Shown here: one piece after another, positions 14,175 to 40,470 of the stretch
Numbering within the stretch: the first letter of the stretch is position 1
Layout: each line of letters opens with the position of its first letter
Source of the DNA: a virus
Strand: one strand, 5' to 3'
Length of the DNA: 47,834 nt
IMG/VR virus record: IMGVR_UViG_3300042446_001106
Location: 1-47,834 of that record
Translations under genes and position numbers: made by a program
Notes under the pieces: model-generated
Databases searched by the model: none
Told to the model about the DNA's origin: nothing
Seen by the model: only the letters and a program-made list of their open reading frames with translations

Positions 14175-16046
14175 ATGAGCAAAGTCATCGGTATCGATTT
14201 AGGTACAACAAATTCATGTGTAGCTATTATTGAAAATGGCGTCGCAAAAGTTATTGAGAATTCAGAAGGCGCACGTACTACACCTAGTATTGTTGCATAC
14301 GCTAATGATGAAATTCTAGTAGGCGCAAGTGCAAAGCGTCAAGCAGTAACAAACCCCAAGAACACAATCTATGCTAGCAAGCGACTAATTGGACGTAAGT
14401 TTGATGAAGCGGCTGTGCAAAAAGACATTGATCTAATGCCTTACACCATCATCAAGGCAGATAACGGTGATGCTTGGGTACAGGTAAATGAGGACAAACT
14501 AGCACCTCCACAAATTTCAGCTGAAGTACTTCGCAAGATGAAAAAGACTGCTGAGGACTATTTAGGTGCAGAGGTTACACAGGCAGTTATTACAGTACCA
14601 GCTTACTTTAATGACAGCCAACGTCAAGCCACTAAGGATGCAGGTAAGATTGCAGGTCTTGAAGTGCTACGTATTATTAACGAGCCTACTGCGGCTGCAC
14701 TGGCCTACGGTGTTGATAAGGCTGACAAGAAAGACAGCAAAGTTGCAGTATACGACTTGGGTGGTGGAACTTTTGATATCTCTATTATTGAGATTGCTAA
14801 TGTCGATGGCGACAAACAGATTGAAGTGTTAAGTACGAACGGTGATACATTCTTAGGTGGTGAAGACTTTGACCAACGCATCATGGACTTCTTGGTTGAT
14901 GAGTTTAAGAAAGAAAATGCAATTGATCTTAAGAAAGACATGCTGGCTCTACAACGCCTAAAAGAGGCTGCTGAAAAAGCCAAGATTGAATTGTCCAGCA
15001 GTGCCAGTACCAGCGTTAACTTGCCCTATATTACAGCAGACGCTAATGGCCCTAAGCATATGAACGTTACTATTAGCCGTAGTAAGCTAGAAAGCCTTGT
15101 TGAAGAATTGATTCAACGTAGTATTGAGCCATGCCGTATTGCTATTAAAGATGCAGGTGTGGATGTTAGCGAAATTGACGAGGTTATCCTTGTTGGTGGT
15201 ATGACACGCATGCCTAAGGTACAAGAAGCAGTTGAGAAGCTGTTCGGTAAGGCTCCACGTAAGGATGTTAACCCAGACGAAGCAGTTGCAGCGGGTGCGG
15301 CTGTACAAGGTGCTGTGCTAGCAGGTGACCGTAATGACGTATTGTTACTTGACGTTACTCCATTGAGCTTGGGTATCGAGACCATGGGCGGCATTATGGC
15401 CAAGTTGATCAACAAGAATACAACTATCCCAACTAAGGCTAGTCAAACATTCTCAACAGCAGAAGACAACCAACCAGCAGTTACTATCAAAGCGTTCCAG
15501 GGTGAGCGTGACCTAGTACAACATAACAAGCTATTAGGCGAGTTTAACTTAGAAGGTATCCAGCCACAACGTCGTGGTCAGCCACAGATCGAAGTTACAT
15601 TGGATATCGATGCCAACGGTATCATGCACGTAAGTGCTAAAGATAAAACCACTGGTAAAGAAAACAAGATTACTATCAAGTCAGACTCGGGTCTAACTAA
15701 AGAAGAAATCGAACGTATGGTACAAGAAGCAGAAGTTAACGCAGAGAGTGATAAGAAGACTCGTGAGTTGATCGAAGCACGTAACCAAGCAGAAGCACAG
15801 ATCCATAGCATTAAGAAAGATATGGAAGAAGTAGATGCAGAGTTATCGGCCGAAGTTAAAGACAAAGTTAACGAAGCTATCACTTCAGTAGATGCAGCAA
15901 TTATCACAGAAGATAAAGATGCCATTACACAAAAACTTAGCGACTTGTTTACTGCGGCTCAACCAGTGATGGAAGCTAAACAAAAGAAAGAAGAAGCTAA
16001 GAAGAATGAAACTCCGGTAGACGCAGAGTTTACTGAAGTTAACTAA
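14175..16046 (+). CDS. dnaK: Molecular chaperone DnaK (Hsp70), full length
   Basis: 623 residues, close to bacterial DnaK. The nucleotide-binding domain has [11 protein letters not shown] at the N-terminus, [26 protein letters not shown] and VGGMTRMP. The linker [10 protein letters not shown] leads to the substrate-binding domain ([20 protein letters not shown]), a helical lid, and the C-terminal DAEFTEVN characteristic of DnaK rather than HscA. Cytoplasmic, ATP-dependent refolding, normally with DnaJ and GrpE, neither of which is seen here, so host co-chaperones must be used. Codon use looks like that of the neighbours, so it is not an obvious recent capture. Confidence 0.98.
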
Positions 16047-16620: not shown

Positions 16621-16923
16621 ATGAGCGCAACAGACGTAAAACTTGACGAAAAGATCAAACAAAAGGTTGAAGAACCGCATCGTTGGAAAGTTATCCTATT
16701 AAACGATGACCATACTCCTGTGGACTTTGTTATTGGAATCCTAACAGAGATTTTTAAACACAGCCAAGAAACAGCCAAGGGTATCACAATGCAGATACAT
16801 ACTGAAGGAAGTGGTATTGCTGGAGTTTACAGTTTTGAGATTGCTGAAGTAAAGGCAGTTGAAGCAACTAATCTAGCTAGAGGCAACGGTTTCCCACTCC
16901 AAATTAAAATGGAAGAAGAATGA
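16621..16923 (+). CDS. clpS: ATP-dependent Clp protease adaptor ClpS
   Basis: 100 residues, the normal length. Residues 21-47 (HRWKVILLNDDHTPVDFVIGIL) hold the conserved NDD-x-T-P binding-pocket motif; QIHTEGSGIAGVYS and the EIAEVKA segment complete the fold. ClpS delivers N-degron substrates to ClpAP and inhibits other ClpA substrates. Phage carriage could redirect host proteolysis. GGAGA precedes the start; ATGA overlap with the heme oxygenase gene. Confidence 0.95.
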   Translation: MSATDVKLDEKIKQKVEEPHRWKVILLNDDHTPVDFVIGILTEIFKHSQETAKGITMQIHTEGSGIAGVYSFEIAEVKAVEATNLARGNGFPLQIKMEEE

Positions 16924-17471
16924 GTTTAAAAGAACTAACACACGAAGCACACCGTAACGCAGAAACACAATCATTTGTCAAGATTTTATTCTCTGGCAAA
17001 ATTAATCCAGAGTTGTATGCTGCCTATCTAAAAAATCAACACCCGTGTTATGAAATTTTAGAAGTGTGCGCTATGCCGCATGGATTACTACATGGCTTAC
17101 CTGATATGCGTAGAGCACCCGCTATTTTAGAAGATTACTTAGAGTTGCATGATCCTACGCAGGAAGAGCCTAAAATTTTACCTGCAACTGAACGTTATAT
17201 CAAGTACATTTTAAGTATTAAAGACGAGCCACAGAAATTAATGGCACACTTGTATGTACGTCATATGGGCGATTTGGCAGGTGGACAAATGATTGCAAAA
17301 CGTGTTCCTGGTAGTGGAAAATATTATCAGTTTGAAAATCCCGATGCACTTAAGACTGCAATCCGCGAACGACTAAATGATGACATGGCCGACGAAGCTA
17401 AAGTATGCTTTAAGTACGCCGAAGAGATGTTTAAAGAAATGATGACATTAGTTGAGTTTGTAGATGAGTAA
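16920..17471 (+). CDS. Heme oxygenase
   Basis: 183 residues. The proximal heme ligand is His11 in EAHRNAE. The distal helix with its flexible glycines reads HMGDLAGGQMIAK, preceded by AHLYVR. It opens heme to biliverdin IX-alpha, CO and iron using reduced ferredoxin or another reductase. The next gene encodes a bilin reductase and overlaps by eight bases, so biliverdin is probably passed on. Heme oxygenase genes are known from cyanophages and from uncultured marine phages carrying pcyX. Confidence 0.95.
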   Translation: MSLKELTHEAHRNAETQSFVKILFSGKINPELYAAYLKNQHPCYEILEVCAMPHGLLHGLPDMRRAPAILEDYLELHDPTQEEPKILPATERYIKYILSIKDEPQKLMAHLYVRHMGDLAGGQMIAKRVPGSGKYYQFENPDALKTAIRERLNDDMADEAKVCFKYAEEMFKEMMTLVEFVDE

Positions 17472-18144
17472 TGTTTGGGATACATTGATTGGGATAGAGC
17501 AACTACTTGAATCTAAGTTCTATGCGACAGGTAGTATTATTAACGAACCTGGTATGGATCGATTCAATCAACCCGGGTGGGTAAACAAAGTATGGGCAAG
17601 TAGTCGTTATCGTCGTGCTCATATTGATGTAGTAGATGCTCGCACAACAAAAGGCCTGTGGATGATGCATTGTTGTGTGTTCCCACATACACACAATCCT
17701 GCTCCTATTTTTGGATTTGATGTGATCGCAGGCAAGAATAAGATTACCGGCTGTTTTATTGATTACAGTCCTGCTGGAGATACTAATCATCCTATGATTG
17801 AGTATTTTGGTGAAGAAGTAGCTAGGTACGAGTGGAATAAGCCACGTAAATTGCCTGACTGGGCAGAGCGTATCTTTAGTAAGCATATGGTTGCAGCGGG
17901 TAATGTAAGTGACGAAGAAGAACTTCGTCAAATCTCAAGTCTTGCCAATATTCTAGTAAATCATTACTTAGAGTGCGTTGACGAAACTAATAATACTGCG
18001 GAAAACACTACAGAAGCGCAAAACTACTACGCACAGAATCAGAAGCAAAACCCGCATACTCCCAAAGTTATGGTTAGTCTAGGGCTAAGTGAAGACGATG
18101 TTCAGCACTTTATTCAGGAATGTTTGTTCCCGGAAATCAGCTAA
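17464..18144 (+). CDS. Ferredoxin-dependent bilin reductase (PcyA/PcyX-like)
   Basis: 226 residues. The core matches the family: WASSRYRRAHID, MMHCCVFPHTHNPAPIFG and FDVIAGKNKI, then FIDYSP. His69 and Asp86 are spaced by 17 residues, exactly like the catalytic His88 and Asp105 of PcyA. The product cannot be read off: PcyA gives phycocyanobilin, and phage PcyX gives phycoerythrobilin. The C-terminal region (NNTAENTTEAQNYYAQNQ) is a low-complexity insert before the last helix. It is paired with heme oxygenase; no bilin acceptor protein is in the window. Confidence 0.88.
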   Translation: MSNVWDTLIGIEQLLESKFYATGSIINEPGMDRFNQPGWVNKVWASSRYRRAHIDVVDARTTKGLWMMHCCVFPHTHNPAPIFGFDVIAGKNKITGCFIDYSPAGDTNHPMIEYFGEEVARYEWNKPRKLPDWAERIFSKHMVAAGNVSDEEELRQISSLANILVNHYLECVDETNNTAENTTEAQNYYAQNQKQNPHTPKVMVSLGLSEDDVQHFIQECLFPEIS

Positions 18145-19948: not shown

Positions 19949-19977
19949 TTGCAAGGGCCATTAAAAGGCTATATAAT
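19949..19977 (+). promoter_or_regulatory. sigma70-type promoter, -10 inside a hairpin loop
   Basis: TTGCAA, 17 bases, TATAAT. GCTAT (19968-19972) and ATAGC (19980-19984) enclose the -10. Serves the DUF3307 gene and possibly the curli cluster. Confidence 0.7.
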
Positions 19978-19989
19978 AAATAGCATAAG

Positions 19990-20358
19990 ATGGAACTTTT
20001 AATATTACTCCTACTACTACAGATCAAGCATTGCTATGCTGACTTTGTACTCCAGACCTACATGCAAACGGTTAAAAAAGGCGTGTGGATGGATCCTGTT
20101 GGAATTAGTCATACATTAGATCACATATACTGTTCTTTAATAGCATTATTGTTATTTTCTATATTTGTTCCATTAAGTGCCGTTAGCATATTACTTGTAT
20201 CTTTAGTTGAAGGTGTTGTACATTACCTTGTTGATTACACAAAAGTAAAATACGGTAGCAAGGACAATACAAAACCCCTCTTCTGGACACAGTTTGGCCT
20301 AGATCAACTAGCGCATCAAGCAACCTACCTAGCCATGGTAGCGTATCTTATTAGTTAA
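19990..20358 (+). CDS. DUF3307-type membrane protein
   Basis: 122 residues, three to four membrane helices. KHCYADFVLQ near the N-terminus and the paired HxxxD/HYLVDYTKVKYG and FWTQFGLDQLAHQ motifs match DUF3307, a membrane family of unknown activity whose conserved His and Asp residues suggest metal binding or catalysis at the membrane. It lies between the internal protein candidate and csgF. Confidence 0.82.
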   Translation: MELLILLLLLQIKHCYADFVLQTYMQTVKKGVWMDPVGISHTLDHIYCSLIALLLFSIFVPLSAVSILLVSLVEGVVHYLVDYTKVKYGSKDNTKPLFWTQFGLDQLAHQATYLAMVAYLIS

Positions 20359-20386: not shown

Positions 20387-20394
20387 ACTAAATA
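20387..20394 (+). promoter_or_regulatory. Late-promoter-like box ahead of csgF
   Basis: ACTAAATAC, sharing the TAAATAC core, 26 bases before the csgF start, within a small dyad CCTA...TAGG. Confidence 0.4.
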
Positions 20395-20420: not shown

Positions 20421-20900
20421 ATGAGAAAAATCCTAGTATCAATAGGTCTGATTTTATCAGCAACACTAGCGCAAGCAGAACTAGTACATCAATTTAAAAA
20501 TCCAGCGTTTAGCGGCGTTGGTTTCAGTAGCCACGTACTCACTATCGACAGCATTGAAAAGAGCCGTCGTGACGCTATTGAAGCAGATAAAAAATCTGCA
20601 ATTGCAAAAGCAGAAGCTGAATTGCTGAACACGCCTTTGAATAGATTTATGAGTCTATTCCAAAGTCAAGTATATGCTCAACTTGCAACACAGTTAAGCA
20701 GCAATCTATTTCAAAACAAATGCTCAGCCGCAGACGGATCATCAATCCCGGGCTGCGTAAATCCAACAACCGGTAATTTTGTTCTAGATGGCAATACAGT
20801 CACTTGGGTTAAATCTGTTGACAAAGTTACACTAACAGTAGTAGATGCTAAAGGTACTAGAACTACTGTAGTAGTACCAATTGCCAGCTTTAGTTTTTAA
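20421..20900 (+). CDS. csgF: Curli assembly factor CsgF
   Basis: 159 residues with AAGGAG upstream. Signal peptide ends ATLAQA. The mature N-terminus, ELVHQFKNPAFSGVGFSSH, corresponds to the CsgF segment F-Q-F-R-N-P-N-F-G-G that inserts into the CsgG channel and forms its second constriction. The helical middle and C-terminal beta region (KVTLTVVDAKGTRTTVVVPI) follow the CsgF pattern. In E. coli CsgF couples secretion to nucleation of amyloid at the surface. csgG follows after nine bases. No csgE is seen. Confidence 0.92.
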   Translation: MRKILVSIGLILSATLAQAELVHQFKNPAFSGVGFSSHVLTIDSIEKSRRDAIEADKKSAIAKAEAELLNTPLNRFMSLFQSQVYAQLATQLSSNLFQNKCSAADGSSIPGCVNPTTGNFVLDGNTVTWVKSVDKVTLTVVDAKGTRTTVVVPIASFSF

Positions 20901-20909
20901 GGAGAAAAT

Positions 20910-21848
20910 ATGAAAGCAATTAAATTATCCTTAATTACATTAGCAATAGTAGCCTTAGCAGGTTGTTCAACTGTCCGCCCATGGGGCAGTACTAAAATTA
21001 AAGAAGAAGCCAAAGTAAGTGAAACAATCAACAAGAGTTTCTCTGTTATTCCAGCGCCAGCAGGCCCAGCAGTAACCGTAGCAGTATATGGTTTCAAAGA
21101 CCTAACAGGACAGCGTAAGCCAAGTAGTACATTGAGCTTGTTCAGCACAGCAGTTACACAAGGTGCTGAAGCATACTTGATGAAGAGTCTACAGGAAGTC
21201 GGCAACCGTCAATGGTTCACAGTGGTTGAGCGTGTTGGCCTAGACAACTTGTTAAAAGAGCGTCAAATGATCAAACAGACCCGTGAGATCTATGATGGTG
21301 CAAATGCCAAACCTTTACCTCCACTACAAATGGCAGGTGTTATTCTAGAAGGCGGCATTATTGATTATAACAGCAATACACTAACAGGCGGCACTGGTGC
21401 TCGTTGGTTAGGCATTGGCACATCTACAGCCTACACACAAGATGTAGTTGTTATCAGCTTACGTTTAGTAAGCGTACAAACTGGAGAAGTCCTAACTACT
21501 GTTACAGTGGAAAAGAACTTGCTCAGCACCGCAGATGGTGCCACAGCGTTGAAGTTTTTCAACCAAGCGACTCAGGCATTTGAATTTGATTCAAGCCAAA
21601 CATTTAACGAGCCAGGTAACTATGCCCTACGTTCAGCGATCGAAACAGCAGTTATTGAGTTAATTAAGAAAGGCGAACGTAATGGTTTATGGCAATTCAA
21701 GGAGAAGTCCAATGAGTTGGTTCAAACACAAACCAAGACTAAAGACGCAGCCAAAGCTGCACCCACACCACAGCAGCCCAATATCGGAGCAGGTGTTGAA
21801 GGAAGCAAAGAAAAGAGTATCTGGGGAAGACTCCAGTTCTGGAAATAA
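20910..21848 (+). CDS. csgG: Curli secretion channel CsgG
   Basis: 312 residues (E. coli 277). Lipoprotein signal with lipobox LAGC at residues 16-19. Family signatures: AVYGFKDLTGQRKPSS, FSTAVTQGAEAYLMKSL, WFTVVERVGLDNLLKERQ, and the transmembrane hairpin region around GARWLGIGTSTAYTQDVV. CsgG forms a nonameric outer-membrane pore for unfolded curli subunits. The extra 40 residues at the C-terminus are Lys/Pro-rich. With CsgF upstream and curlin-type substrates downstream this forms a complete export-plus-cargo unit. Confidence 0.96.
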   Translation: MKAIKLSLITLAIVALAGCSTVRPWGSTKIKEEAKVSETINKSFSVIPAPAGPAVTVAVYGFKDLTGQRKPSSTLSLFSTAVTQGAEAYLMKSLQEVGNRQWFTVVERVGLDNLLKERQMIKQTREIYDGANAKPLPPLQMAGVILEGGIIDYNSNTLTGGTGARWLGIGTSTAYTQDVVVISLRLVSVQTGEVLTTVTVEKNLLSTADGATALKFFNQATQAFEFDSSQTFNEPGNYALRSAIETAVIELIKKGERNGLWQFKEKSNELVQTQTKTKDAAKAAPTPQQPNIGAGVEGSKEKSIWGRLQFWK

Positions 21849-21879
21849 AAAGAATAAAGAAAAATAACCAGACTGGGGT

Positions 21880-21908
21880 GTAAAAAAATTTACAGTAAAA
21901 ATTTTTAC
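21880..21908. promoter_or_regulatory. Tandem 14-bp palindromes between csgG and the curlin gene
   Basis: GTAAAAAAATTTAC (21880-21893) and GTAAAAATTTTTAC (21895-21908), almost the same palindrome twice, 15 bases apart, in the 149-base gap. Possible operator for a dimeric regulator; A/T-richness makes chance possible. Confidence 0.45.
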
Positions 21909-21997
21909 ATGTCAGAAAAATAACAGCGGTAGTTTATATATGAGAAGTTCCTTTTAAATAAAATACACAACGGACATTCAAGTCCAAAGGAAATATT

Positions 21998-22858
21998 ATG
22001 AAACAATTATTATTAGTATTAGCATTATTAACAGCGTTCCCAGTAATGGCTCAACAGGCTGTGCTGGCCCCAACTACGCCAACAATCCCGTCAGTGGCTA
22101 CTGTTAGTCCAAACGCAGCCAGTGCATTAGCAGTTAGCACTACCAACAGAGTGTTTATTGATCAAAGCGGTGAGAACCCTAACGTTAATATCACACAAAC
22201 AGGTACAGGCAACACAGTAGGTGCGGACACTACTTACCAAAAAGCACTAACAGGTATCCCTAACAGACTAGGAACACCAACAACTAGAGCCTGGACATTA
22301 AGCAGTCCTGTATATCTAAGAGGTGCTGACCAAACTATTGTTACAGTACAAACAGGCAATAATAACACTATCGGTCTAAGAGCAGAAAATCCTACAACAA
22401 CAGGCGACGGAGTTAATGTTACTATTCAACAAATTGGTAACAGCAACGTAGTTGATGCTGCCTGCGGTGGCGGAACGGCTAGCAATGGAACCACTGCCTT
22501 AACAGGATGTAAGGATGCTGTGTTAAACTGGAAATTTGCTGGCAATACTAACGTGATGCAATTCCGTGGTACAGGTGACAATCTTAACAGCAATGTAGAT
22601 ACAGCTGGTAACAGCAATGAATTTTACATTGACGCTATTGGCAATAGTCATTCACAGACACTAAAAGTTGTTGGTGACTTTAACGTATTCAATGTTAGCC
22701 AAACAAGTACAGGCGCAAGTGGTAGCAGTGCTTGGATAGATGTTACAGGTAGCACCAATAGGTTTACCGTTAACCAAGCTGGAACTGTTGACAGCGTAGT
22801 TAACATCAAGAGTGTAGCCAGTACTGGAACCTGGAACATTAACCAAAAGACCAACTAA
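21998..22858 (+). CDS. Curlin-repeat (CsgA/CsgB-like) secreted protein
   Basis: 286 residues, AAAGGAA upstream. Signal peptide ends FPVMA before QQAVLAP. The mature chain contains curlin-type Q/N-rich strand repeats: NVNITQTGTGNTVG, VTVQTGNNNTIG, VTIQQIGNSNVVD, and later degenerate copies such as GSTNRFTVNQAG and TGTWNINQKTN. The I/V-x-Q-x-G-x-x-N rhythm is that of amyloid-forming curlin. Repeats are less regular than in CsgA and are interrupted by a Cys-containing loop (DAACGGG...GCKD). Likely cargo of the CsgG channel. Confidence 0.85.
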   Translation: MKQLLLVLALLTAFPVMAQQAVLAPTTPTIPSVATVSPNAASALAVSTTNRVFIDQSGENPNVNITQTGTGNTVGADTTYQKALTGIPNRLGTPTTRAWTLSSPVYLRGADQTIVTVQTGNNNTIGLRAENPTTTGDGVNVTIQQIGNSNVVDAACGGGTASNGTTALTGCKDAVLNWKFAGNTNVMQFRGTGDNLNSNVDTAGNSNEFYIDAIGNSHSQTLKVVGDFNVFNVSQTSTGASGSSAWIDVTGSTNRFTVNQAGTVDSVVNIKSVASTGTWNINQKTN

Positions 22859-22867
22859 GGGCTAACA

Positions 22868-24037
22868 ATGAAAGTTGTTGCTCTTATCGTGGGCTTGATA
22901 ATAGCCAGTTCGGCTTGGGCAGAGATTGGCTCTGTTACAGAAGCCAGTGGCACTGCTATCATCAAGCGTGGTAAGGACACAATTCAAATTGCCAAAGGCA
23001 CGCAGATAAAGGTCAACGACAAAGTTGAAACCAAGAACGGAAAAGTCAAGATCGTTTTTAAAGACGATACAAATGTTACTGTTACTGAGTCAAGTAGCCT
23101 TGTTATTGATGACTTCGTTTATGATCCTAAAAGCGGAGCTGGCAAGTTGGGACTCAAAGCCGCCGCCGGCACAGTGCGTTATGTATCAGGAAGCATTGCT
23201 AAAGATCCAAAGAATGTAAAAATCAACACACCCACAGCGGCCATTGCTGTTCGTGGCACTGACTTTGTCATGGCTGTGAGCGAAACAGGTGCTAGTATGA
23301 TCATGTTGATGCCCACTTGCGAAATAGAACAGAACGTAAATTTAAAAGGTCTTAGTTGCGGCAGCGGTGCTATTGATGTAGAAACACCATCTGGCATAGT
23401 TAAATTAAACCGCCCTTATCAAGCCACCCTAGTTGAAACCTTAAACGGTATACCTAGCCCTGCTGTGATAGTTGCTCTTAATGGTATGGCTATTGGCAAT
23501 AACCTAATGGTTAATCCTCCAAGAACAACTACTGGATTAAATGTTATTGCTGCCGCTCGTGCTGCCGCAGTAGCTACTGGCGATGCTAAGAAAGACGATA
23601 AGAAAGATAAGCGTGACGAAAAAGACGAAAAAGACGATGCTAAAGAAGAACGTCAACACGCTGCTAATAAAGATGGGCCTGGCGGCAATAGATCACAGCG
23701 ACAAGGTCGTAGTGCTAATGAAGGCGATGAGGATCCTGGTAATAGAACTAAAGTGGGTTTAGATACTAAAGAAGATACATTAGTCAGTCAAACGGCCACA
23801 GTTAGTGAAACAGAAAACCCTTACCTGTTTAAACTATGGAAAGACAAAAGTGAAACACAGCAGGTTGGTTGGATGTACGAAAGTCTAAGTCCCAACAGCA
23901 GAAACTATGCCAATGTGGTTATGCCTATGAACACTCAGGTACAGGTAATAGTAACACAAGATATGCAGACTAACAGCTGGAACTTTTCAGCAGGTAAAGC
24001 CATAGGACAGATTGTTATCAATCAGAACTACAGATGA
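22868..24037 (+). CDS. Exported FecR-domain protein
   Basis: 389 residues. Signal peptide ends SSAWA before EIGSVTEASG. The FecR domain covers about residues 20-140: GTAIIKRG, KGTQIKVNDKVETKNGKVKI, FKDDTNVTVTESSSLVIDD, and INTPTAAIAVRGTDF. Residues 240-260 are an extreme Lys/Asp/Glu stretch, followed by a C-terminal beta domain. FecR domains outside iron signalling are often near CHASE2 cyclases and surface-protein exporters, as here. It starts nine bases after the curlin gene and overlaps the next by four. Confidence 0.88.
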   Translation: MKVVALIVGLIIASSAWAEIGSVTEASGTAIIKRGKDTIQIAKGTQIKVNDKVETKNGKVKIVFKDDTNVTVTESSSLVIDDFVYDPKSGAGKLGLKAAAGTVRYVSGSIAKDPKNVKINTPTAAIAVRGTDFVMAVSETGASMIMLMPTCEIEQNVNLKGLSCGSGAIDVETPSGIVKLNRPYQATLVETLNGIPSPAVIVALNGMAIGNNLMVNPPRTTTGLNVIAAARAAAVATGDAKKDDKKDKRDEKDEKDDAKEERQHAANKDGPGGNRSQRQGRSANEGDEDPGNRTKVGLDTKEDTLVSQTATVSETENPYLFKLWKDKSETQQVGWMYESLSPNSRNYANVVMPMNTQVQVIVTQDMQTNSWNFSAGKAIGQIVINQNYR

Positions 24038-25863
24038 AAAAAATATTATTTGCCTTAATGTTATTATGCTCTAATGCGTTTGCTGCTATTACTGACGGCA
24101 AGTTCGGTATCAATCAAATATTCGATGTTCAATACAACTGGAGTGGAACTACATTAAATGCCAGCAACTTTATTGCACCGTATAATAAAAACTTTCAAAC
24201 AGTAACAGCAACCAGCGGACAGTACTTTCAGTTCTTTGCCAGCACTACCAATCCGGGAACCTATGGATTGAAGTTGATGAACAGCAATGGCACACAACAT
24301 AGCATTGTTCATGACACCGGCGAGATCACAGCTCTAGGTAATGGTGCTATCTTTTACCTTGGGTCTGGCTGGCTCGGCAATGTTATCACAACATCTACTG
24401 GATATAACTACGGTGCTAGTGCCCAATTCACTAATATGGATACTAGCGTTACTAGCAGTGATTTAAACAATTATACATTTGCTAGTACAACACCCTTGGC
24501 TGCAGGTCAGACAGCACAGCCAGCAGCACCCACTTCCAACTGGCAACCTATTCGAACAACTACAAGTCCAGTACTGATCAGTGACATCTATCCTACCAGC
24601 TATAACAGCCCTAGTAACGAAACAGCAGTTAATGCATTTGACGGTAATGTGGGTACAAAATATCTAAACTTCGACAAGCAGAACGCAGGAGTTACTGTTA
24701 AATTAACTCAAGGCCGAGTAGTTCAAAAGTTTACGTTAACTACTGCTAACGATTCTCCAGAACGTGATCCTGCTAGCTACAAACTATATGGATCAAATGA
24801 CGGCGTTAATTGGACTCTGATTAAAGAAGGTCCGCTATCGTTAAGTGATGGTAGATATGCTGTCAGCGGAGAAATAGCAGTTGCTAACACCAATGCGTAT
24901 GTCTATTACTTTATGTTATTTCCCAGTGTTAAAAACAATAGCGGAAATAGTGTTCAGATTTCAGAAGTTACTTATTACTATGATTTAAATGATGGTGTAA
25001 CCAGTACTGATACTGGATCAGGCGGAACACCTAGTAACCCCGGACAAGCTGGTAGCGTCTGTGCTGACTGTGCTCCTAGTTGGCCAGCAACTAGTGATAT
25101 TACTGTAAACCAAACTACACAACGTAATTCAGCTAAGAATCGTGTAAGTAATGTTTCGTTGGGTAACAGTTTATATGTTGAAGAAAAGATTGGTAGTAGC
25201 GGCAACTCAGTAACTGTAGAACAGACTGGATTTTACAATAAAATTTCGGGTCTAGGTGGAACTACGTATGCAACACTCGAAGGTTCTAGTAACACAGTTA
25301 ATATCAAGCAAGGTGACACACTAGGAAAAAATCTTATTGAGTTTGCCATTAAGGGTAACACCAACAATGTTACTATATGGCAATCACGTAGTCCTGTAAC
25401 AGGATTAAAAGATGGTAGCGAAAGTGGTGGCCACTATATAGGCTTAAACATTAACGGAAGTACTAATACATTATCATTGAAACAGAGTAACGATGGTGGT
25501 GCAACAAGTGGACACTTTGCCTATGTCGATGTTACGGGCACGGGCAACAACGGCGCACTAAAACAAATGGGTAACGGTGAGAAAACATTCTTTGGTATTA
25601 TTAGTGGTAGCACTAATATTTTTGATGTTACACAACAAGGATCAGGCAGTTTCTTTGATCTAAGCCTAACTGGTAACGGACATAATGTTACAGCTAACCA
25701 AAAAGACGCAGGTAGCCATAAAGCCACTATCAACTTAACCAACAATGGTGGTGCTAGTAATGTCACTTTAATACAGCAAGGTGCTACAGCGCAGAATATC
25801 AACATCACACAACAATGTGCTACACTATCAGGGTGTAGTGTTTCAGTGACACAGGGGCAATAG
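24034..25863 (+). CDS. Curlin-repeat adhesin with discoidin-like domain
   Basis: 609 residues. Signal peptide ends SNAFA. An N-terminal beta region (to about 170) is followed by an F5/8 type C (discoidin/CBM32-like) domain at about 185-315: NAFDGNVGTKYLNF, KFTLTTANDSPERDPASYKL, YGSNDGVNWTLI, then QISEVTYYYD. After a short GG/Pro linker with a CADC pair, residues 350-609 carry curlin-type repeats (VTVEQTGFYNKISG, NTVNIKQGD, NNVTIWQS, NVTLIQQGATAQNINITQQ). The architecture suggests an amyloid-anchored carbohydrate-binding adhesin exported through CsgG. Confidence 0.83.
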   Translation: MKKILFALMLLCSNAFAAITDGKFGINQIFDVQYNWSGTTLNASNFIAPYNKNFQTVTATSGQYFQFFASTTNPGTYGLKLMNSNGTQHSIVHDTGEITALGNGAIFYLGSGWLGNVITTSTGYNYGASAQFTNMDTSVTSSDLNNYTFASTTPLAAGQTAQPAAPTSNWQPIRTTTSPVLISDIYPTSYNSPSNETAVNAFDGNVGTKYLNFDKQNAGVTVKLTQGRVVQKFTLTTANDSPERDPASYKLYGSNDGVNWTLIKEGPLSLSDGRYAVSGEIAVANTNAYVYYFMLFPSVKNNSGNSVQISEVTYYYDLNDGVTSTDTGSGGTPSNPGQAGSVCADCAPSWPATSDITVNQTTQRNSAKNRVSNVSLGNSLYVEEKIGSSGNSVTVEQTGFYNKISGLGGTTYATLEGSSNTVNIKQGDTLGKNLIEFAIKGNTNNVTIWQSRSPVTGLKDGSESGGHYIGLNINGSTNTLSLKQSNDGGATSGHFAYVDVTGTGNNGALKQMGNGEKTFFGIISGSTNIFDVTQQGSGSFFDLSLTGNGHNVTANQKDAGSHKATINLTNNGGASNVTLIQQGATAQNINITQQCATLSGCSVSVTQGQ

Positions 25864-25864
25864 G

Positions 25865-26023
25865 ATGTTTAACGCTATAGGCTCAATAATGTTAGCAGGC
25901 ATGCTAGCCCAAGAGCCAAGGTGTGTAAAATGGACCTGGACGGGCGATGTCTACAATCGCAAGGTTGTATGCTTAGAATGGACTAAACCTCCGCCTAAGG
26001 ATAAGGATCCTAAGAAAACATGA
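25865..26023 (+). CDS. 52-residue secreted small protein
   Basis: Starts one base after the adhesin stop and overlaps the next start as ATGA, so it lies fully within the operon. A short hydrophobic N-terminus (MFNAIGSIMLAGMLA) is followed by two cysteines (PRCVKW, VVCLEW) and a Pro/Lys/Asp tail (PPPKDKDPKK). It may be a periplasmic peptide accessory to curli export. No family recognised. Confidence 0.65.
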   Translation: MFNAIGSIMLAGMLAQEPRCVKWTWTGDVYNRKVVCLEWTKPPPKDKDPKKT

Positions 26024-26502
26024 TTGATCCTATCACACTTGGTATTGCTTTCACAGCCGCACAGCAGTCAGTAGGCTATATTAAAAAGGCCATTGCCCTG
26101 GGCAAAGATGTCAACAGTCTTTACGGACAGTTTGCCAAGTTCTTTGAAAACAGCGATAAAATTCACTCTGCCAGCGTAGAGGCACAAAACAGTAAAAAAA
26201 TTCTCACCGACGGTCAGATTAGAGCCATGTCTATACAGATTGCCATGCAGAGCAAGGCTCTACGTGATGCTGAAAAAGAACTAAAAGAGATGTTGATATG
26301 GTCAGGTAATAAAGACGTCTGGGACGAGATGATGGCCGAGCGTGTGCGTATGTATAAAGAACGTGCTAAATTAGAAGCAGACATAAAAAATGCTAGGATT
26401 CAAGCACAGTCTGACATGATAGACAGAGTACTTATAGGTACAAGTTTTATGGCAATAGCGGTCCCTACGGTGATGTTTACTTTTGCTATGATAGTTAGAT
26501 AG
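26020..26502 (+). CDS. Membrane-anchored coiled-coil protein
   Basis: 160 residues. The N-terminal 45 residues (IDPITLGIAFTAAQQSVGYI) are moderately hydrophobic. A long helical coiled-coil middle follows, and a C-terminal membrane helix (VLIGTSFMAIAVPTVMFTFAMIV) closes the protein. I recall similar sequences in T4-like aquatic phage genomes. Within this operon it could bridge the inner membrane and the periplasmic assembly. An i-spanin-like role is an alternative, but the orientation is reversed. Confidence 0.7.
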   Translation: MIDPITLGIAFTAAQQSVGYIKKAIALGKDVNSLYGQFAKFFENSDKIHSASVEAQNSKKILTDGQIRAMSIQIAMQSKALRDAEKELKEMLIWSGNKDVWDEMMAERVRMYKERAKLEADIKNARIQAQSDMIDRVLIGTSFMAIAVPTVMFTFAMIVR

Positions 26503-26509
26503 TAAATAT

Positions 26510-28573
26510 ATGATGAAGAAAATACTATTATCCCCTTGGACAGCACTGGCTACACTAGCCCTGGTGTTATTAGTCCGTCTTGTAGATCCTGCGTTTGTAG
26601 AACGAGTAAGACTTACTTATTTTGATCAACTAATCACAAGCCAGCAGGCCAAAGATGTTCCTGTTTACACGGTCAACATTGACGAAGCAACATTAGACAA
26701 GTTAGGACAGTTTCCGTTCCCTAGAGACATGTATGCTGATATCATCAAAGACTTATACAAGCGTGACGCTGGACTGGTTGTATTCAATGTGCTTATGCCA
26801 GAGAAGGATCGTTTTGGTAAAGATGCGGTGTTAGGTGAAACTCTTAAAAAGTATCCTGTAGTGTTGCCTGCAATAGGCAGTGAGAAACAAAAGAATACTA
26901 ATCATGGAACTCCTGCACAGGTAGTAGGTGCTGATCCTGCTGGAATGGTAGTTGAGTATCCGGGATTGATCAATAACGTTGAGCCACAAGAAAGCCTTGC
27001 CGCTGGTGTTGGCATTGTCAATACATTTCCAGAGATAGATGGTGTTGTTCGTCGTATGCCAATGGTCATACTAAGTCAAGAACAACTACATCCTGCACTA
27101 GCTCTAGAGACTTTACGTGTCGCGGCCAAGGATCCCAAGTTCCAAGTTAAAATAGGAGACATGGGCGTGGAGGCGGTGCGTGTTCCTAAGTTTGGTAAAG
27201 TACCAACGGACAACGAAGGTCGTGTTTGGATCGATTGGTCGGCCACTCCGAGAGAATACAGCTACATGAAGTTGCCAGAATCATTCGACGGTGGCATTGT
27301 TATTGTTGGACTAAGTGCTGCGGGACTGGCTAATCCAGTTAGTACTGCTAAAGGTGAAGTATGGCCACAATATCTACAAGGTGCGGTTATTGGCACTATG
27401 ATAACACAGAGTAATATACAGCGTCCAGGTTGGGCTGATCAAGCTGAAATCATTGCCTTGCTGGCCGCAGGCTTGTTGATGCTATTTTTATCAAGGTGGA
27501 CCTATGCTTTTATTCCTGTTGTTGTCTTTCTCGGTGGCAGTCACTTTGCTATATCTTATCTATATGAAAACTCCAGAATCCTATTGGACGCCACTTGGTT
27601 TGTTGTTGGCTGTAGCTTGGTATACATTCACGCTTATAGTGTCAAATTTCTAAGCGAATACTTACAGAAGTCACAGATTAAGAAACAGTTCGGATCATAT
27701 GTAAACCCTATTATTGTAGAACGACTACAAAAGGATCCTAGCTTTATTAAACTGGGCGGTGAGAAGAAAGAACTTACTGTCATGATGAGTGACATGCGTA
27801 ACTTTACTGGTTTGGGAGAAACATATGGAGATGATGTTGTGGCATTTACGCATACAATGAATCGTTACATGACTGCCATTGCAGAACCTATACTACGCAA
27901 CAATGGATGTTTGATCAAGTTCATTGGTGATGCGTCATTACACGTTCACGGTGCTCCTATTCAAGAGGCGCAAGATCCTGATCACATACTAGCAGGTGTA
28001 CGTACAGGATTAGAAATGTTACACGCTGTTGAACTGTTTAACATTGAACTAGAGAAAGAGGGCAAGCCAAAAGTAGGATGCGGAATAGGTATCAACACAG
28101 GTCCTACCTTGATTGGTAACATCGGAAGTAAGGATCGATTTGCCTATGACGTATTAGGTGATTCAGTTAGTCTAACAGCTCGTCTAGAAGGACAGACAAA
28201 GAACTATGGTGTGCTGATTATCATTAGTGAAGCTACACAGAGTAGAGTAGGAAATGCTTACTTTACATTGCCTTTAGATTGTATTGCGGTCAAGGGTAAG
28301 AACATAGGTGTCAATATCTTTACTGTGTTCTACAATCCAGATGAGAATGTAGCAGCAGAATGGCATAGTGCTAGAGAGCATCATGAACTAATGCTCGAAT
28401 ACTATCGTGAACAAAATTGGGACAAGGCTATTGAACTTTGTCAAGAACTCGTTGGTGAGTTCTATGGTAATATGGATCACTACTATGAGATATGGATTGA
28501 ACGTATTGCCGAAATGCGTAGTAGAAATTTAGCCGCAGACTGGGATGGTACTTACAGAGCTACAAGCAAGTAA
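26510..28573 (+). CDS. CHASE2-domain class III adenylate cyclase
   Basis: 687 residues. N-terminal helix (residues 10-22), periplasmic CHASE2 sensor (about 30-300, with DEATLDKLGQFPFPRDMYAD), three membrane helices (310-375), then the cyclase domain. Metal-binding D428 (MMSDMRNFT) and D474 (KFIGDAS) are present. K470 and D547 fit ATP rather than GTP. R558 is kept, but the transition-state Asn is replaced by Ser554 (GDSVSLTAR). A C-terminal helical region follows. It ends the curli cluster and meets a bidirectional terminator. No Shine-Dalgarno is obvious at the ATGATG start. Confidence 0.93.
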   Translation: MMKKILLSPWTALATLALVLLVRLVDPAFVERVRLTYFDQLITSQQAKDVPVYTVNIDEATLDKLGQFPFPRDMYADIIKDLYKRDAGLVVFNVLMPEKDRFGKDAVLGETLKKYPVVLPAIGSEKQKNTNHGTPAQVVGADPAGMVVEYPGLINNVEPQESLAAGVGIVNTFPEIDGVVRRMPMVILSQEQLHPALALETLRVAAKDPKFQVKIGDMGVEAVRVPKFGKVPTDNEGRVWIDWSATPREYSYMKLPESFDGGIVIVGLSAAGLANPVSTAKGEVWPQYLQGAVIGTMITQSNIQRPGWADQAEIIALLAAGLLMLFLSRWTYAFIPVVVFLGGSHFAISYLYENSRILLDATWFVVGCSLVYIHAYSVKFLSEYLQKSQIKKQFGSYVNPIIVERLQKDPSFIKLGGEKKELTVMMSDMRNFTGLGETYGDDVVAFTHTMNRYMTAIAEPILRNNGCLIKFIGDASLHVHGAPIQEAQDPDHILAGVRTGLEMLHAVELFNIELEKEGKPKVGCGIGINTGPTLIGNIGSKDRFAYDVLGDSVSLTARLEGQTKNYGVLIIISEATQSRVGNAYFTLPLDCIAVKGKNIGVNIFTVFYNPDENVAAEWHSAREHHELMLEYYREQNWDKAIELCQELVGEFYGNMDHYYEIWIERIAEMRSRNLAADWDGTYRATSK

Positions 28574-28575
28574 AC

Positions 28576-28600
28576 AAAAAGGACCCTAGGGTCCTTTTTT
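28576..28600. terminator. Bidirectional terminator
   Basis: AAAAAGGACC, loop CTAG, GGTCCTTTTT between convergent transcription units (cyclase on plus, membrane protein on minus). A and T runs on both sides serve both directions. Confidence 0.88.
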
Positions 28601-28946
28601 AATCATCTCCGGCAGCGCCTTTAATTTCTTCTTTAGTAGCTCGACGTTTACCAATAGGCGGTTCATCTGCTGTTTTATTAATCTCAGCTTCAGCTTTTAC
28701 ACGCTCACGTTCAATGGTCTTGCCACGCAGTTCCATGACAGTTTCAACTTTTTGATTCAACCTGATAAGATCGTTATCAAGCATACGAATACGATCAATA
28801 AGAGCGATAAGAGTTCCATTAGCTGCTCCAATAACAGGTTTAATTTCTGTGGTAACCCATGTCCACACGTAATATATGAAGTATCCCATGCCACCGGCTG
28901 CTATAACCGGGAAACCATAGCGATTGACCATTTCTGCCAAATCCAT
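28599..28946 (-). CDS. Membrane-anchored coiled-coil protein
   Basis: 115 residues. N-terminal MDLAEMVNRYGFPVIAAGG leads into a membrane helix (FIYYVWTW), then an amphipathic helical stretch (LIDRIRMLDNDLIRLNQKVETVMEL) and a charged tail. Its layout parallels the 91-residue protein two genes upstream (MDFFKLVAELGFPIAAAF...), so the two look like paralogues. This N-terminus resembles small holin-like or YvrJ-like phage proteins; function not assigned. Confidence 0.78.
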   Translation of the reverse strand: MDLAEMVNRYGFPVIAAGGMGYFIYYVWTWVTTEIKPVIGAANGTLIALIDRIRMLDNDLIRLNQKVETVMELRGKTIERERVKAEAEINKTADEPPIGKRRATKEEIKGAAGDD

Positions 28947-29125
28947 TATTTGTATCCTCTAAAAAATTTAACTACAGGATCAACTTTAACTAATTCTACT
29001 CGTCCGTTGATATTCTTAACTTCAAACAGATCCCCTGCTCGCCACTCTAATTTATCAATATTAAGTTCTCGATCTAGAACTATTCTATCTTTGTGCAAGT
29101 CCCAATCATAATCAGCGTATTTCAT
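28946..29125 (-). CDS. 59-residue hypothetical protein
   Basis: MKYADYDWDLHKDRIVLDRE... encoded between two membrane proteins and overlapping each by TAATG, a strong sign that it is real. The sequence is acidic and beta-rich (LEWRAGDLFEVKNINGRVEL), resembling a small SH3-like domain. No family recognised. Confidence 0.75.
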   Translation of the reverse strand: MKYADYDWDLHKDRIVLDRELNIDKLEWRAGDLFEVKNINGRVELVKVDPVVKFFRGYK

Positions 29126-29400
29126 TAGTCTTTCCTTTGATCTGCTTGTTCAGCGCGACTAATACGATCGTAGTCGGGCTGTAGGCCTAACGCATGACTA
29201 ACTTTAACATCAATACGCTGTAGTTGATTAGTCATAGTATCAACACGGGCATCTAAGCCTTTAATAATACCACCCATACCATTTACTGAGCTAGTAACAC
29301 CTGCAAGAATAAATTTCAGTGTTAGAAACACAAAGTAGCCTGCGGCAAATGCTGCGGCAATTGGAAATCCAAGTTCTGCTACTAATTTAAAAAAATCCAT
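29125..29400 (-). CDS. Membrane-anchored coiled-coil protein, paralogue
   Basis: 91 residues, AGGAG upstream on the minus strand. N-terminal membrane helix (GFPIAAAFAAGYFVFLTLKF), a glycine-rich hinge (SSVNGMGGI), then a coiled coil (LDARVDTMTNQLQRIDVKV). First gene of a three-gene minus-strand operon. See the paralogue ending at 28599. A holin-like or membrane-scaffold role is possible. Confidence 0.78.
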   Translation of the reverse strand: MDFFKLVAELGFPIAAAFAAGYFVFLTLKFILAGVTSSVNGMGGIIKGLDARVDTMTNQLQRIDVKVSHALGLQPDYDRISRAEQADQRKD

Positions 29401-29419: not shown

Positions 29420-29427
29420 TATTTACC
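29420..29427 (-). promoter_or_regulatory. Late-promoter-like box on the minus strand
   Basis: GGTAAATA on the minus strand, 20 bases before the start at 29400, sharing the TAAATA core. Confidence 0.4.
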
Positions 29428-29434
29428 AAAATGC

Positions 29435-29463
29435 TTGCGTATAAATACTAGTGACTGTATAAT
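29435..29463 (+). promoter_or_regulatory. sigma70 promoter of the tmRNA with an embedded late box
   Basis: TTGCGT, 17 bases, TATAAT (29458-29463). The spacer contains an exact late box TATAAATA (29440-29447), so the gene could be read early and late. ACTGT (29454-29458) and ACAGT (29465-29469) form a dyad around the -10. Confidence 0.82.
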
Positions 29464-29469
29464 AACAGT

Positions 29470-29850
29470 TATTGTTGTAATCCCTTCAAAGTGAAGGCAT
29501 TCTGGACGCGGGTTCGACTCCCGCCAGGTCCACCAAAAGGATATTTATGAAGTACACCGCATTGTGCCCAAGTTGTTTTATTAGATTTAGTTGGGTAATG
29601 AGGAAAGGCTTAACAAAACATAAGTGTTTTTCTGATGGGCCTGCCATGGTTTCGACAGGGTGAGATAATAGAGACGGCAACACGGTAGGCGATGACCGTA
29701 AATCAAGCAAATAAAGTAAATGCAACAGCAAATACATTCGAGTATTTCCAAGTTGACTTCGACGTTACAGCAATGAACGACGAGCAATTTGCAATCGCAG
29801 CCTAAGAAACTGCAACTCCGGGGTAGGACTTACCTTGTAAAATAAACAAC
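29470..29850 (+). ncRNA. ssrA: Circularly permuted two-piece tmRNA
   Basis: The 3' acceptor piece comes first: T arm GCGGG TTCGACT CCCGC (29508-29524), CAGGTCC (29525-29531), A, then an encoded CCA ending at 29535. A 101-base intervening segment follows. The coding piece starts GGGCCTG at 29637 and continues TTTCGACAGGG. GGGCCUG pairs with CAGGUCC over seven positions (one G-U) to form the tRNA-like acceptor stem, and AGGGUG (29657-29662) can pair with CAUUCU (29498-29503) to start helix P2. The tag frame runs 29722-29805: 27 codons beginning ATANTFEYF and ending NDEQFAIAA, stop TAA. Exact ends of the pieces are inferred; no tRNA fits the acceptor piece in the normal order. Confidence 0.9.
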
Positions 29851-29851
29851 C

Positions 29852-29877
29852 ATAGGACCTTCGGGTCCTATCTTTTT
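29852..29877 (+). terminator. tmRNA terminator
   Basis: ATAGGACC, loop TTCG, GGTCCTAT, then CTTTTT. A textbook rho-independent terminator directly after the coding piece. Confidence 0.93.
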
Positions 29878-29903
29878 GGCTATATTTCCAATATTTCGCA
29901 TCG

Positions 29904-38952: not shown

Positions 38953-40470
38953 TTAACTAGCTGTAATAGTAAGGGGTTGACTGCTAGTAAACGGCCATCT
39001 TAAATATCTATTAGGGCTTCCCTGTAGGCTAGTTAAATCACTATACCCACCGCCACTATCAACGATTCTATTAGGAGTAGATCCGGTAGTAGATAACCAA
39101 CGTATACAATCATCTGCGGTATAATGTCTCCTACTTCCAACAAGACATGCTAGCACTCCCGTAACTTGGGGAGCAGCCATGCTAGTTCCTTGTATTTTTT
39201 TTATATAAAAATTAACATTGTCAGGATGAGCAACTGCTCCGCTGCCTAAAGTAGCTGTTAACGGCATGGCACTTTGTACAGCTTCACCAGGTGCATACAC
39301 AGTGATTCCGGGACCGCATGTACTAAATGCAGACTTGTTTTCTGTAAGAGCAGCTCGAATAGCACCTACTGAAATTACACTAGTAGGGCCATTAGGAGTT
39401 GAGCCTCTATGGTAATATCTAATATCTGCCCCAGATGTTGTATAATAATTGTTGTAATCTAACCCACCTAGTACATCTTGTTTGTGTGTATCATTGCCGG
39501 CAGCTGCAACTAGGATCATACCTGCATCTATACACGCAGTAATATCTGCATCAACACTGCTAACTCGAATGGGATGAGTATACACGCCTGCATTAAGATT
39601 ATAAACACTTTCAATCATACCGTAAGCACTTTGTGCAGTAACAGCAGTCCACGGAGTTCCTCTATAATTACCACCTACTATATTTTGATAAGTTTGATAA
39701 TAACCCCAACTCATGTTTACTACAGTAGGATTAGTATTAGTTTTTAAATTGTGCCAAAGTCTCATCATGTTAAAACTTGCACTGATTCCAAATGCGTCAA
39801 TGTCAAAAATTTTAATAGCATATAAGTTTGCAGCTCTTGCCCAGCCAAATCTACGCCCTGCGGCTGTCCCTGCACAATGAGTACCGTGCCCGTAGGTATC
39901 AGTATAGTGAGCTGGTCCTTGTGAATATGTCCCGGATAGTCCTGATGCTGCGGGCCAATTAATTTGCTGTAGTCTTAACGTAGTGCCGTCTTGAGCTAGC
40001 CATTCAGGATGTCCGACCTCAATACCCGAATCTTGAATAACAACGTCAACATTCTCTCCTATAGCAGTATAGGCATGTTGATAGTTGAGATTTAACGTTG
40101 AAAACGGATTAACAGTATTTGTACATGAAGGTATTGACCATGCATAATGACTGTTATTTTGTGCAGTAGATCTACTGTAATTCCTAAAAGCATCTAATGT
40201 ATTTCTTCGAAGGAAAATACCGTTTTCTTCTTTAGAACCATATCGAACATCGATAATCCTTGGATCTTGTTTTAACATTTCAGCTTCTGCTCGTGTTAAT
40301 ACAACATCAAAGTTGTAAAGACTATCTTGTTTTTCGTTCCACATCTCAACAGTTCTCTGTGGAATATGAGGTGTTGTTCCTCCTGATGAAGTTATTTCTT
40401 CCATTAAGGCGTCAACATCAACACCTTTGTGAACTGTGACTACGCAACGATTTTGATCTTCTGTACTCAT
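38953..40470 (-). CDS. Subtilisin-family serine protease (peptidase S8)
   Basis: 505 residues from the ATG at 40470, which overlaps the upstream fibre stop as TAATG. Residues 8-80 look like an I9-type propeptide (CVVTVHKG...FDVVLTRAEAEML...DVRYG). Catalytic Asp147 (VIQDSGIE), His195 (YGHGTHCAG), oxyanion Asn in VAAAGND, and the Ser of GTSMAAPQV are all intact. No signal peptide. It sits between two fibre genes, so it is probably a virion-associated protease that trims host surface protein or matures fibres. Confidence 0.94.
   Translation of the reverse strand: MSTEDQNRCVVTVHKGVDVDALMEEITSSGGTTPHIPQRTVEMWNEKQDSLYNFDVVLTRAEAEMLKQDPRIIDVRYGSKEENGIFLRRNTLDAFRNYSRSTAQNNSHYAWSIPSCTNTVNPFSTLNLNYQHAYTAIGENVDVVIQDSGIEVGHPEWLAQDGTTLRLQQINWPAASGLSGTYSQGPAHYTDTYGHGTHCAGTAAGRRFGWARAANLYAIKIFDIDAFGISASFNMMRLWHNLKTNTNPTVVNMSWGYYQTYQNIVGGNYRGTPWTAVTAQSAYGMIESVYNLNAGVYTHPIRVSSVDADITACIDAGMILVAAAGNDTHKQDVLGGLDYNNYYTTSGADIRYYHRGSTPNGPTSVISVGAIRAALTENKSAFSTCGPGITVYAPGEAVQSAMPLTATLGSGAVAHPDNVNFYIKKIQGTSMAAPQVTGVLACLVGSRRHYTADDCIRWLSTTGSTPNRIVDSGGGYSDLTSLQGSPNRYLRWPFTSSQPLTITAS

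Follow-up and report, generated by a model that had tools for sequence, protein, structure and literature searches.

Positions 20421-28573 of the IMG/VR virus record IMGVR_UViG_3300042446_001106, which was analysed over its full 47,834 nucleotides (referred to as the window), carry a curli-type (type VIII) secretion cassette together with genes for an exported FecR-domain protein and a CHASE2-class III adenylate cyclase. The identity of this cassette is well supported by homology. As to its purpose, we infer, giving the reading about an even chance, that amyloid-anchored lectin fibres are displayed late in infection and tether infected cells and their debris to neighbours, and that the FecR-domain protein and the cyclase report the state of the envelope. 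Open reading frame (ORF) calls and Pfam profile searches confirmed eight contiguous plus-strand ORFs (Table 1), much as an earlier note, made from the sequence alone, had described them. The profile searches proposed in that note as a check bore out CsgF, CsgG, FecR, F5/8-type C, CHASE2 and cyclase, with the curlin assignment reached via family alignments; of the "several" four-base overlaps it had counted, exactly two exist (24034-24037 and 26020-26023).

CsgG and CsgF both gave near end-to-end matches to the solved Escherichia coli proteins, CsgG to 3x2r with an E-value of 1.6e-68 and the CsgF family profile to 6l7a with 8.7e-13, the N-terminal segment of CsgF being part of the alignment. 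CsgF likely carries the CsgG-binding N-terminal segment, with binding predicted, and because this segment is conserved the CsgG-CsgF pairing has probably been kept. The lipobox cysteine of CsgG (Cys19) is invariant. With a CsgG channel, CsgF and secreted curlin-repeat subunits encoded side by side, the block is, by sequence, a member of the curli/type VIII group.

Scans of IMG/VR with CsgG and with the FecR-domain protein returned 58 loci and 326 candidate relatives, respectively. The same block order was found in the 58 loci, and csgG and csgF were also present in 59 of 60 inspected FecR loci; csgF-csgG-curlin-fecR is nearly constant, with the cyclase missing from or distant in some blocks (some loci end early). 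Five contigs (L024, L046, L053, L055 and L057) are 208-383 kb long, exceeding the genomes of phages HTVC008M and Melnitz, and the 383-kb contig has a csgG copy at each end. Bacterial contamination or an assembly chimera could be suspected from the bacterial origin of curli genes, and the earlier note had named a search of related phages as a check on this point. Besides the 58 loci of constant order and the FecR-selected viral contigs, a further contig (L004) shares an identical stretch of 20,936 bases with the window, both block borders included, although it may share reads with the window, and phage cyclases are split from 37 bacterial ones by a fully supported branch (see below). This origin of the block is already refuted, its residual probability being negligible. 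In addition, seven block genes (all but the 52-amino-acid (aa) gene) showed ratios of nonsynonymous to synonymous substitution (dN/dS) of about 0.02-0.2 against relatives, indicating that they are under purifying selection and that the block is real and selected.

The earlier note knew of no such phage system, a view that does not hold: the block has been published in pelagimyophages including HTVC008M (PMC7029224), in methylophage Melnitz (PMC9004378) and in pelagipodophages (PMC9599517). Sibling capture was proposed by Zaragoza-Solas et al. 2020 (PMC7029224), and the 2022 mSystems paper reported the complete module from podophages and myophages alike, along with its transfer between families and its detection in metatranscriptomes (PMC9599517). 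What the present analysis adds to the published block is the late-promoter core, the swappable head of curlin-2, an exported FecR protein that is not an anti-sigma factor, a survey of bacterial FecR/CHASE2 pairing, and an Asn-to-Ser change in the cyclase. The window virus appears to be a T4-like virus of aquatic bacteria, its large structural protein being nearest to T4-like cyanophages. The GenBank records of HTVC008M and Melnitz, likewise T4-like phages, have the order csgF-csgG-curlin-fecR-curlin-cyclase and share with the window this gene order, the position before tail genes and the lack of CsgE, whereas their CsgG is just 41-45% identical to that of the window, which, unlike them, has a discoidin head on curlin-2, two extra small genes and a DUF3307 gene upstream. 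A pair of phrog_18771 genes lies downstream on the other strand in the window and upstream in HTVC008M and Melnitz. The pelagipodophage module likewise comprises CsgF, CsgG, CsgA/B and FecR, often with a second CsgA/B and an adenylate cyclase, but starts with a histidine kinase, none of which was seen in the window; FecR was there read as an iron regulator, and a term search of that paper gave no mention of sugar-binding heads, CHASE2 or promoters (PMC9599517).

The two fibre subunits are weak matches as single proteins, with Curlin_rpt E-values of 0.012 and 0.017, and become firm assignments with family alignments. The solved curlin 8c50 was matched by the alignments of both curlin-1 (2e-10) and curlin-2 (1.2e-16), and that of curlin-1 also matched E. 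coli CsgA 8enq (1.2e-3). The Q/G/N positions of the curlin-1 repeat are invariant in 27 divergent homologues, 19 of which match Curlin_rpt, and the Q/G/N repeat is kept over 27-33 divergent curlin-1 and curlin-2 proteins. Against NCBIfam, curlin-1 reached 2e-6 for CsgB and 4e-4 for CsgA, far under the curated cut-offs. The earlier note had held CsgE, CsgA and CsgB to be absent; this stands for CsgE and fails for CsgA/B-like subunits, which are present, except by strict orthology, since curlin-1 matches the CsgB and CsgA models below their cut-offs.

Curlin-2 consists of a signal peptide, a head with an F5/8-type C (discoidin/CBM32-like) domain at residues 191-265, and a curlin-repeat tail at residues 365-609. 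Foldseek matched the predicted fold of the head to galactose-binding CBM32 modules. Across 33 curlin-2 proteins the tail is the conserved part; the head has an F5/8-type C domain in 12 and PA14 in 2, and the shortest members (166 and 219 aa) are near head-less. Pairwise comparisons gave heads 34-54% identical against tails 79-80% identical (34%/79% in one pair), and one pair showed the reverse (head 78%, tail 49%). Because head and tail identities diverge in this way between pairs, we see a sign of shuffling, with curlin-2 apparently combining a conserved amyloid-repeat tail with a swappable head that is CBM32-like discoidin, PA14 or absent. Sugar-binding heads were not mentioned in the phage curli papers within the terms searched.

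The TAAATA core of T4-type late promoters occurs within 60 nucleotides (nt) upstream of csgF in 51 of the 58 loci, most often at a distance of 26-36 nt from the gene, compared with 3% of random 60-mers; these loci are related, so that the counts are not independent events. The intergenic sequence around the csgF motif is otherwise poorly conserved, and in the same set of loci no core was found upstream of csgG, fecR or curlin-2. Among 39 cyclase genes, 14 have the core 7-13 nt upstream (11 nt in HTVC008M and Melnitz), and two tail genes of the window are preceded by the same core. Upstream of csgF in HTVC008M the motif reads TATAAATAG, at a distance of 11 nt, and gp2 and a baseplate wedge gene are preceded by an identical motif. 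The T4 late promoter has TATAAATA at -13 to -6, so that, with the T of the core 11 nt ahead of the ATG, transcription would begin right at the start codon and yield a leaderless mRNA. This spacing was by far the commonest in HTVC008M (13 of 27 distances, counted over two overlapping loci with some sites counted twice), and distances in relatives cluster at 10-14 nt (sequences covered: L142, L003 and L004-L057), implying that late transcripts of these T4-like phages may be leaderless.

Not every scan was informative. An exact TATAAATA search of the window stayed at chance level, the shorter core being informative with its position and the cross-locus control. As a promoter check, gp23 lacked the motif upstream in two relatives; in one of the two, TATAAATAT occurs in the next ORF after gp23, some 10 nt ahead of an internal ATG, and a tail-sheath profile gave no match in the relatives. 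An earlier study failed to find late promoters in pelagimyophages. Overall, the motif speaks for the block being transcribed late, and this evidence makes both nutrient uptake and early exclusion less likely as functions. For superinfection exclusion or surface masking, an amyloid coat would hide receptors or trap incoming competitor phages at the surface of the infected cell. Fibres that are exported and bear varying sugar-binding heads could indeed cover host surface glycans, and the module persists in several phage lineages, but late-type promoters would put expression past the most useful period, and a coat has no obvious need for a cyclase; we consider this function unlikely.

The FecR-domain protein has a signal peptide directly ahead of its FecR domain, as read from the sequence and the N-terminal helix of the model, and its AlphaFold2 model comprises a FecR beta domain (residues 21-190), a disordered linker (225-315) and a small C-terminal beta domain (320-386). 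FecR is the sole consistent Pfam domain, found in 28 of 28 members. A cytoplasmic anti-sigma regulator was ruled out by the signal peptide and the lack of an anti-sigma N-terminal domain, and no sigma or TonB partner was found among the annotated genes. Structural neighbours by Foldseek included the periplasmic domains of anti-sigma proteins (4m0n, PupR) and, superposed at 1.0 angstrom along 61 residues, 5ix9, an antifreeze protein's "cell surface anchoring domain"; a sequence comparison backed the latter weakly in a matching region (E=0.84). We take the latter protein to be the ice adhesin of Marinomonas. The nearest NCBIfam models were the leptospiral surface proteins Lsa33 (1.1e-8) and LipL45 (6.2e-8). 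Because of these likenesses to an adhesin anchoring domain and to leptospiral surface proteins, the most likely role of the protein, as judged from sequence and model, is that of an anchor or plug in the envelope, replacing the published iron-regulator reading. A curlin repeat at its C-terminus, hinted at by two invariant Gln and ININQ ends, was rejected when a profile comparison with curlin-1 came back empty. Uptake of a nutrient or cofactor via an ungated CsgG pore, FecR serving as the iron sensor (PMC7029224, PMC9599517), would fit the missing CsgE and the name of the FecR domain; it is very improbable given the late-type promoters, the exported FecR protein that lacks an anti-sigma domain and has no sigma or TonB partner among the annotated genes, and the two conserved curlins that it leaves unexplained.

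The cyclase carries the active-site motifs KFIGDA and YDVLGDSVSLTAR and keeps both metal aspartates of the catalytic domain (motifs MMSDMR and FIGDA). In the window and most phage cyclases the transition-state Asn is replaced by Ser, with the Arg of the pair kept, a substitution absent from 37 bacterial relatives; about 41 of 57 phage cyclases combine Asp at the substrate position with Ser at the transition-state position, the usual bacterial residues being Ser/Thr and Asn, respectively. A quick tree, with the bacterial set picked by similarity to the window, placed 49 of 49 phage cyclases on one side of a branch with 100% support in the Shimodaira-Hasegawa-like approximate likelihood ratio test, separating them from the 37 bacterial ones. 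By sequence, then, the active site in most phage cyclases is derived relative to the 37 bacterial ones.

A FecR-domain gene was found in 19 of 38 bacterial contexts around the best CHASE2-cyclase relatives, about 15 of them within 250 nt by hand count. Such pairs, which like the phage pair consist of an exported FecR-domain protein adjoining a CHASE2 membrane sensor, with cyclase output in many, have been noted in a Campylobacterota cyclase cluster (PMC9239204); in a Burkholderia FecR-CHASE2-kinase operon (BiofilmReg), where the output is instead a histidine kinase, disruption abolished biofilm (PMC5192318). One bacterial CHASE2-cyclase lies in a single open frame of about 3,300 codons (L212 276-10163); this frame is a giant fusion or else an artefact of high GC content. 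Bacterial pairs differ from the phage pair in mostly lacking a curli link: a CHASE2 gene lay within 20 kb of csgG in 1 of 27 curli-bearing genomes. Alphaproteobacterial curli operons resemble the phage block in running from csgF-csgG into curlin-repeat genes and differ in that the fetched 10-kb flanks hold no FecR/cyclase block, as was the case for 76 of 80 bacterial csgG loci. The remaining four have the phage-form block and look like phage contigs binned into metagenome-assembled genomes (MAGs). Genomes deposited as MAGs of Rhodobacteraceae, Pelagibacter and Flavobacteriaceae contain phage-type curli blocks (L062, L065, L071, L104 and L237), probably misbinned phage contigs. An ancestral bacterial linkage of curli with FecR/CHASE2 was rejected: the sole apparent case is Qipengyuania flava, with a GGDEF-EAL output and on the opposite strand, and the other 26 of 27 genomes are unlinked. 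In that genome, some 14 kb away from csgG, a FecR gene adjoins one for a CHASE2-GGDEF-EAL protein (L232 6317-9913), a possible cyclic-di-GMP counterpart. Because the FecR/CHASE2 pair is bacterial yet rarely linked to curli, the phage appears to have joined two bacterial modules, as was partly noted before (PMC9599517).

The recurrence of this bacterial unit (PMC9239204) and the derived active site could mean that the FecR/CHASE2-cyclase pair is the functional core, altering host cyclic-nucleotide signalling (e.g. steering metabolism or countering nucleotide-based defence) with the curli genes as sensor input. We regard this as unlikely: the cyclase is the inconstant member of a block whose csgF-csgG-curlin-fecR part is nearly constant, no cyclic-nucleotide receptor was detected in the phages searched, and similarity to Pycsar cyclases is generic.

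In the tethering mechanism that we favour, CsgG would form the outer-membrane channel with CsgF as its cap, and curlin-1 would be exported to form an amyloid strand, which curlin-2 would join via its curlin tail while exposing its sugar-binding head on the exterior. Infected cells and, after lysis, their envelope debris would thereby become sticky, lectin-bearing surfaces that could hold neighbouring hosts near the progeny. The exported FecR protein would anchor or plug at the envelope as partner of the CHASE2 cyclase, which may read the state of the envelope or of export and raise a cyclic nucleotide acting on a host effector. The suggestion in the earlier note that the infected cell is made to export amyloid adhesins fits the matched CsgG and CsgF, the secreted, repeat-conserving curlins, the predicted sugar-binding head and the late-type promoter. 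A more elaborate version, to which we assign a low probability, is a self-reporting adhesive organelle in which FecR replaces CsgE as plug or anchor for a late, lectin-headed amyloid exported via CsgG and signals export or contact to the cyclase, timing lysis or host physiology to the armed surface.

Several points weigh against tethering. The main contrary datum is that Melnitz-infected cultures showed no clumping by cytometry or transmission electron microscopy (PMC9004378); Melnitz curlin-2 is a short form of 338 aa, which might bear on this result. Some curlin-2 members have no recognisable sugar-binding head, and confidence in the curlin-2 AlphaFold model is modest, with a predicted local distance difference test score of 68.5 overall, rising to roughly 80 over the discoidin domain and the tail. 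Late expression is itself deduced from the promoter motif, and no cyclic-nucleotide-binding protein was detected in ten phage records, two complete genomes among them. Finally, no CsgE was found in the window, the complete Melnitz and HTVC008M genomes or seven related records, with the E. coli control matched. CsgE boosts curli yield without being essential (PMC7029224), and since alphaproteobacterial modules likewise lack it, along with CsgC and CsgD (PMC9599517), we do not take its absence to exclude type VIII membership.

Some of the same observations speak for a lysis-timing pore, as proposed by Buchholz et al. 2022 from missing csgA/csgB and a diverged CsgF (PMC9004378), in which CsgG, with or without CsgF, would be put to late use as a gated pore in the outer membrane, depolarising or weakening the envelope, the other genes being regulatory or relics. 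Late-type promoters, the lack of a CsgE gate, the unclumped Melnitz cultures and the two small membrane proteins that are conserved in the neighbourhood of the block would all fit. Its premise of missing fibre genes and a diverged CsgF looks wrong, however, because both Melnitz curlins align with the curlin families and the alignment of the CsgF family to E. coli CsgF takes in the N-terminal segment. The curlins in the window group are under purifying selection, and the conserved CsgF segment again suggests a retained CsgG-CsgF pairing. Moreover, CsgG sits in the outer membrane, not the energised one, the neighbouring small proteins match no holin family, and swappable sugar-binding heads would make no sense in a pore. 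We therefore hold a lysis pore to be improbable and retain tethering by lectin-headed fibres as the preferred reading.

Table 1 Features of the block and its flanks in the window.
Feature	Position	Strand	Evidence or remark
TAAATA late-promoter core, 13 nt before DUF3307 gene	19977-19982	+	motif there in 49 of 52 loci
DUF3307 membrane-protein gene, flanking upstream	19990-20358	+	
TAAATA core of T4-type late promoter, 32 nt before csgF	20389-20394	+	
csgF	20421-20900	+	Pfam CsgF 1.2e-10; signal peptide, conserved N-terminal segment (LVHQFKNPAFSG), C-terminal domain
csgG	20910-21848	+	Pfam CsgG 2.8e-51; outer-membrane lipoprotein channel
curlin-1	21998-22858	+	secreted curlin-repeat protein, CsgA/B-like; family alignments
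FecR-domain gene	22868-24037	+	Pfam FecR 6.3e-10; exported protein
curlin-2 (discoidin-curlin)	24034-25863	+	F5/8-C 3.5e-9; curlin-repeat tail
52-aa protein gene	25865-26023	+	ORF
160-aa protein gene	26020-26502	+	ORF; C-terminal hydrophobic segment
TAAATA core, 7 nt before cyclase gene	26503-26508	+	
CHASE2-class III adenylate cyclase (membrane sensor)	26510-28573	+	CHASE2 7.6e-37, cyclase 3.1e-15 (Pfam)
phrog_18771 small membrane protein A, flanking	28599-28946	-	block membership uncertain
phrog_18771 small membrane protein B, flanking	29125-29400	-	block membership uncertain

The two small genes of the block were found in nine compared sequences, the 52-aa gene (window included in the count) always alongside the 160-aa gene, which showed a dN/dS of 0.02-0.12. 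The phrog_18771 pair lies near the block in 32 sequences, HTVC008M and Melnitz among them; these paralogues vary in side and strand across marine and sister-group phages (window 28599-29400; L002 10954-11592; L003 6900-7462). Their topology is suggestive of holins, a candidate role that was dropped because Pfam gave no holin family and PHROGs just E=0.05. Window neighbours include ribonucleotide reductase, an exonuclease, virion structural and tail proteins, 17 tRNAs and a transfer-messenger RNA (tmRNA). The tmRNA adjoins the block (29422-29896) and matches both the betaproteobacterial and the permuted Rfam models, the former being only a hint as to the host; TATAAATA occurs at 29440, close to its start. 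Just upstream of the block, at 16920-18144, a heme oxygenase gene (Pfam 5.6e-21) is followed by one for a ferredoxin-dependent bilin reductase (7.8e-18), a homologue of which lies upstream in 43 of the compared sequences. A full-length DnaK/Hsp70 chaperone gene (E=2.4e-256) occupies 14175-16046, and a subtilase-family protease gene (5e-28) lies amid tail genes at 38953-40524.

Phage curli blocks occur throughout the oceans, and the presence of fibre subunits even in Melnitz removes the main argument for a lysis pore. With the swappable sugar-binding heads and the late-type promoters, a vague guess at adhesion gives way to specific, testable predictions. If the tethering reading is true, a lytic virus would make dying cells into traps for new hosts, which would bear on how phages find hosts in dilute water.

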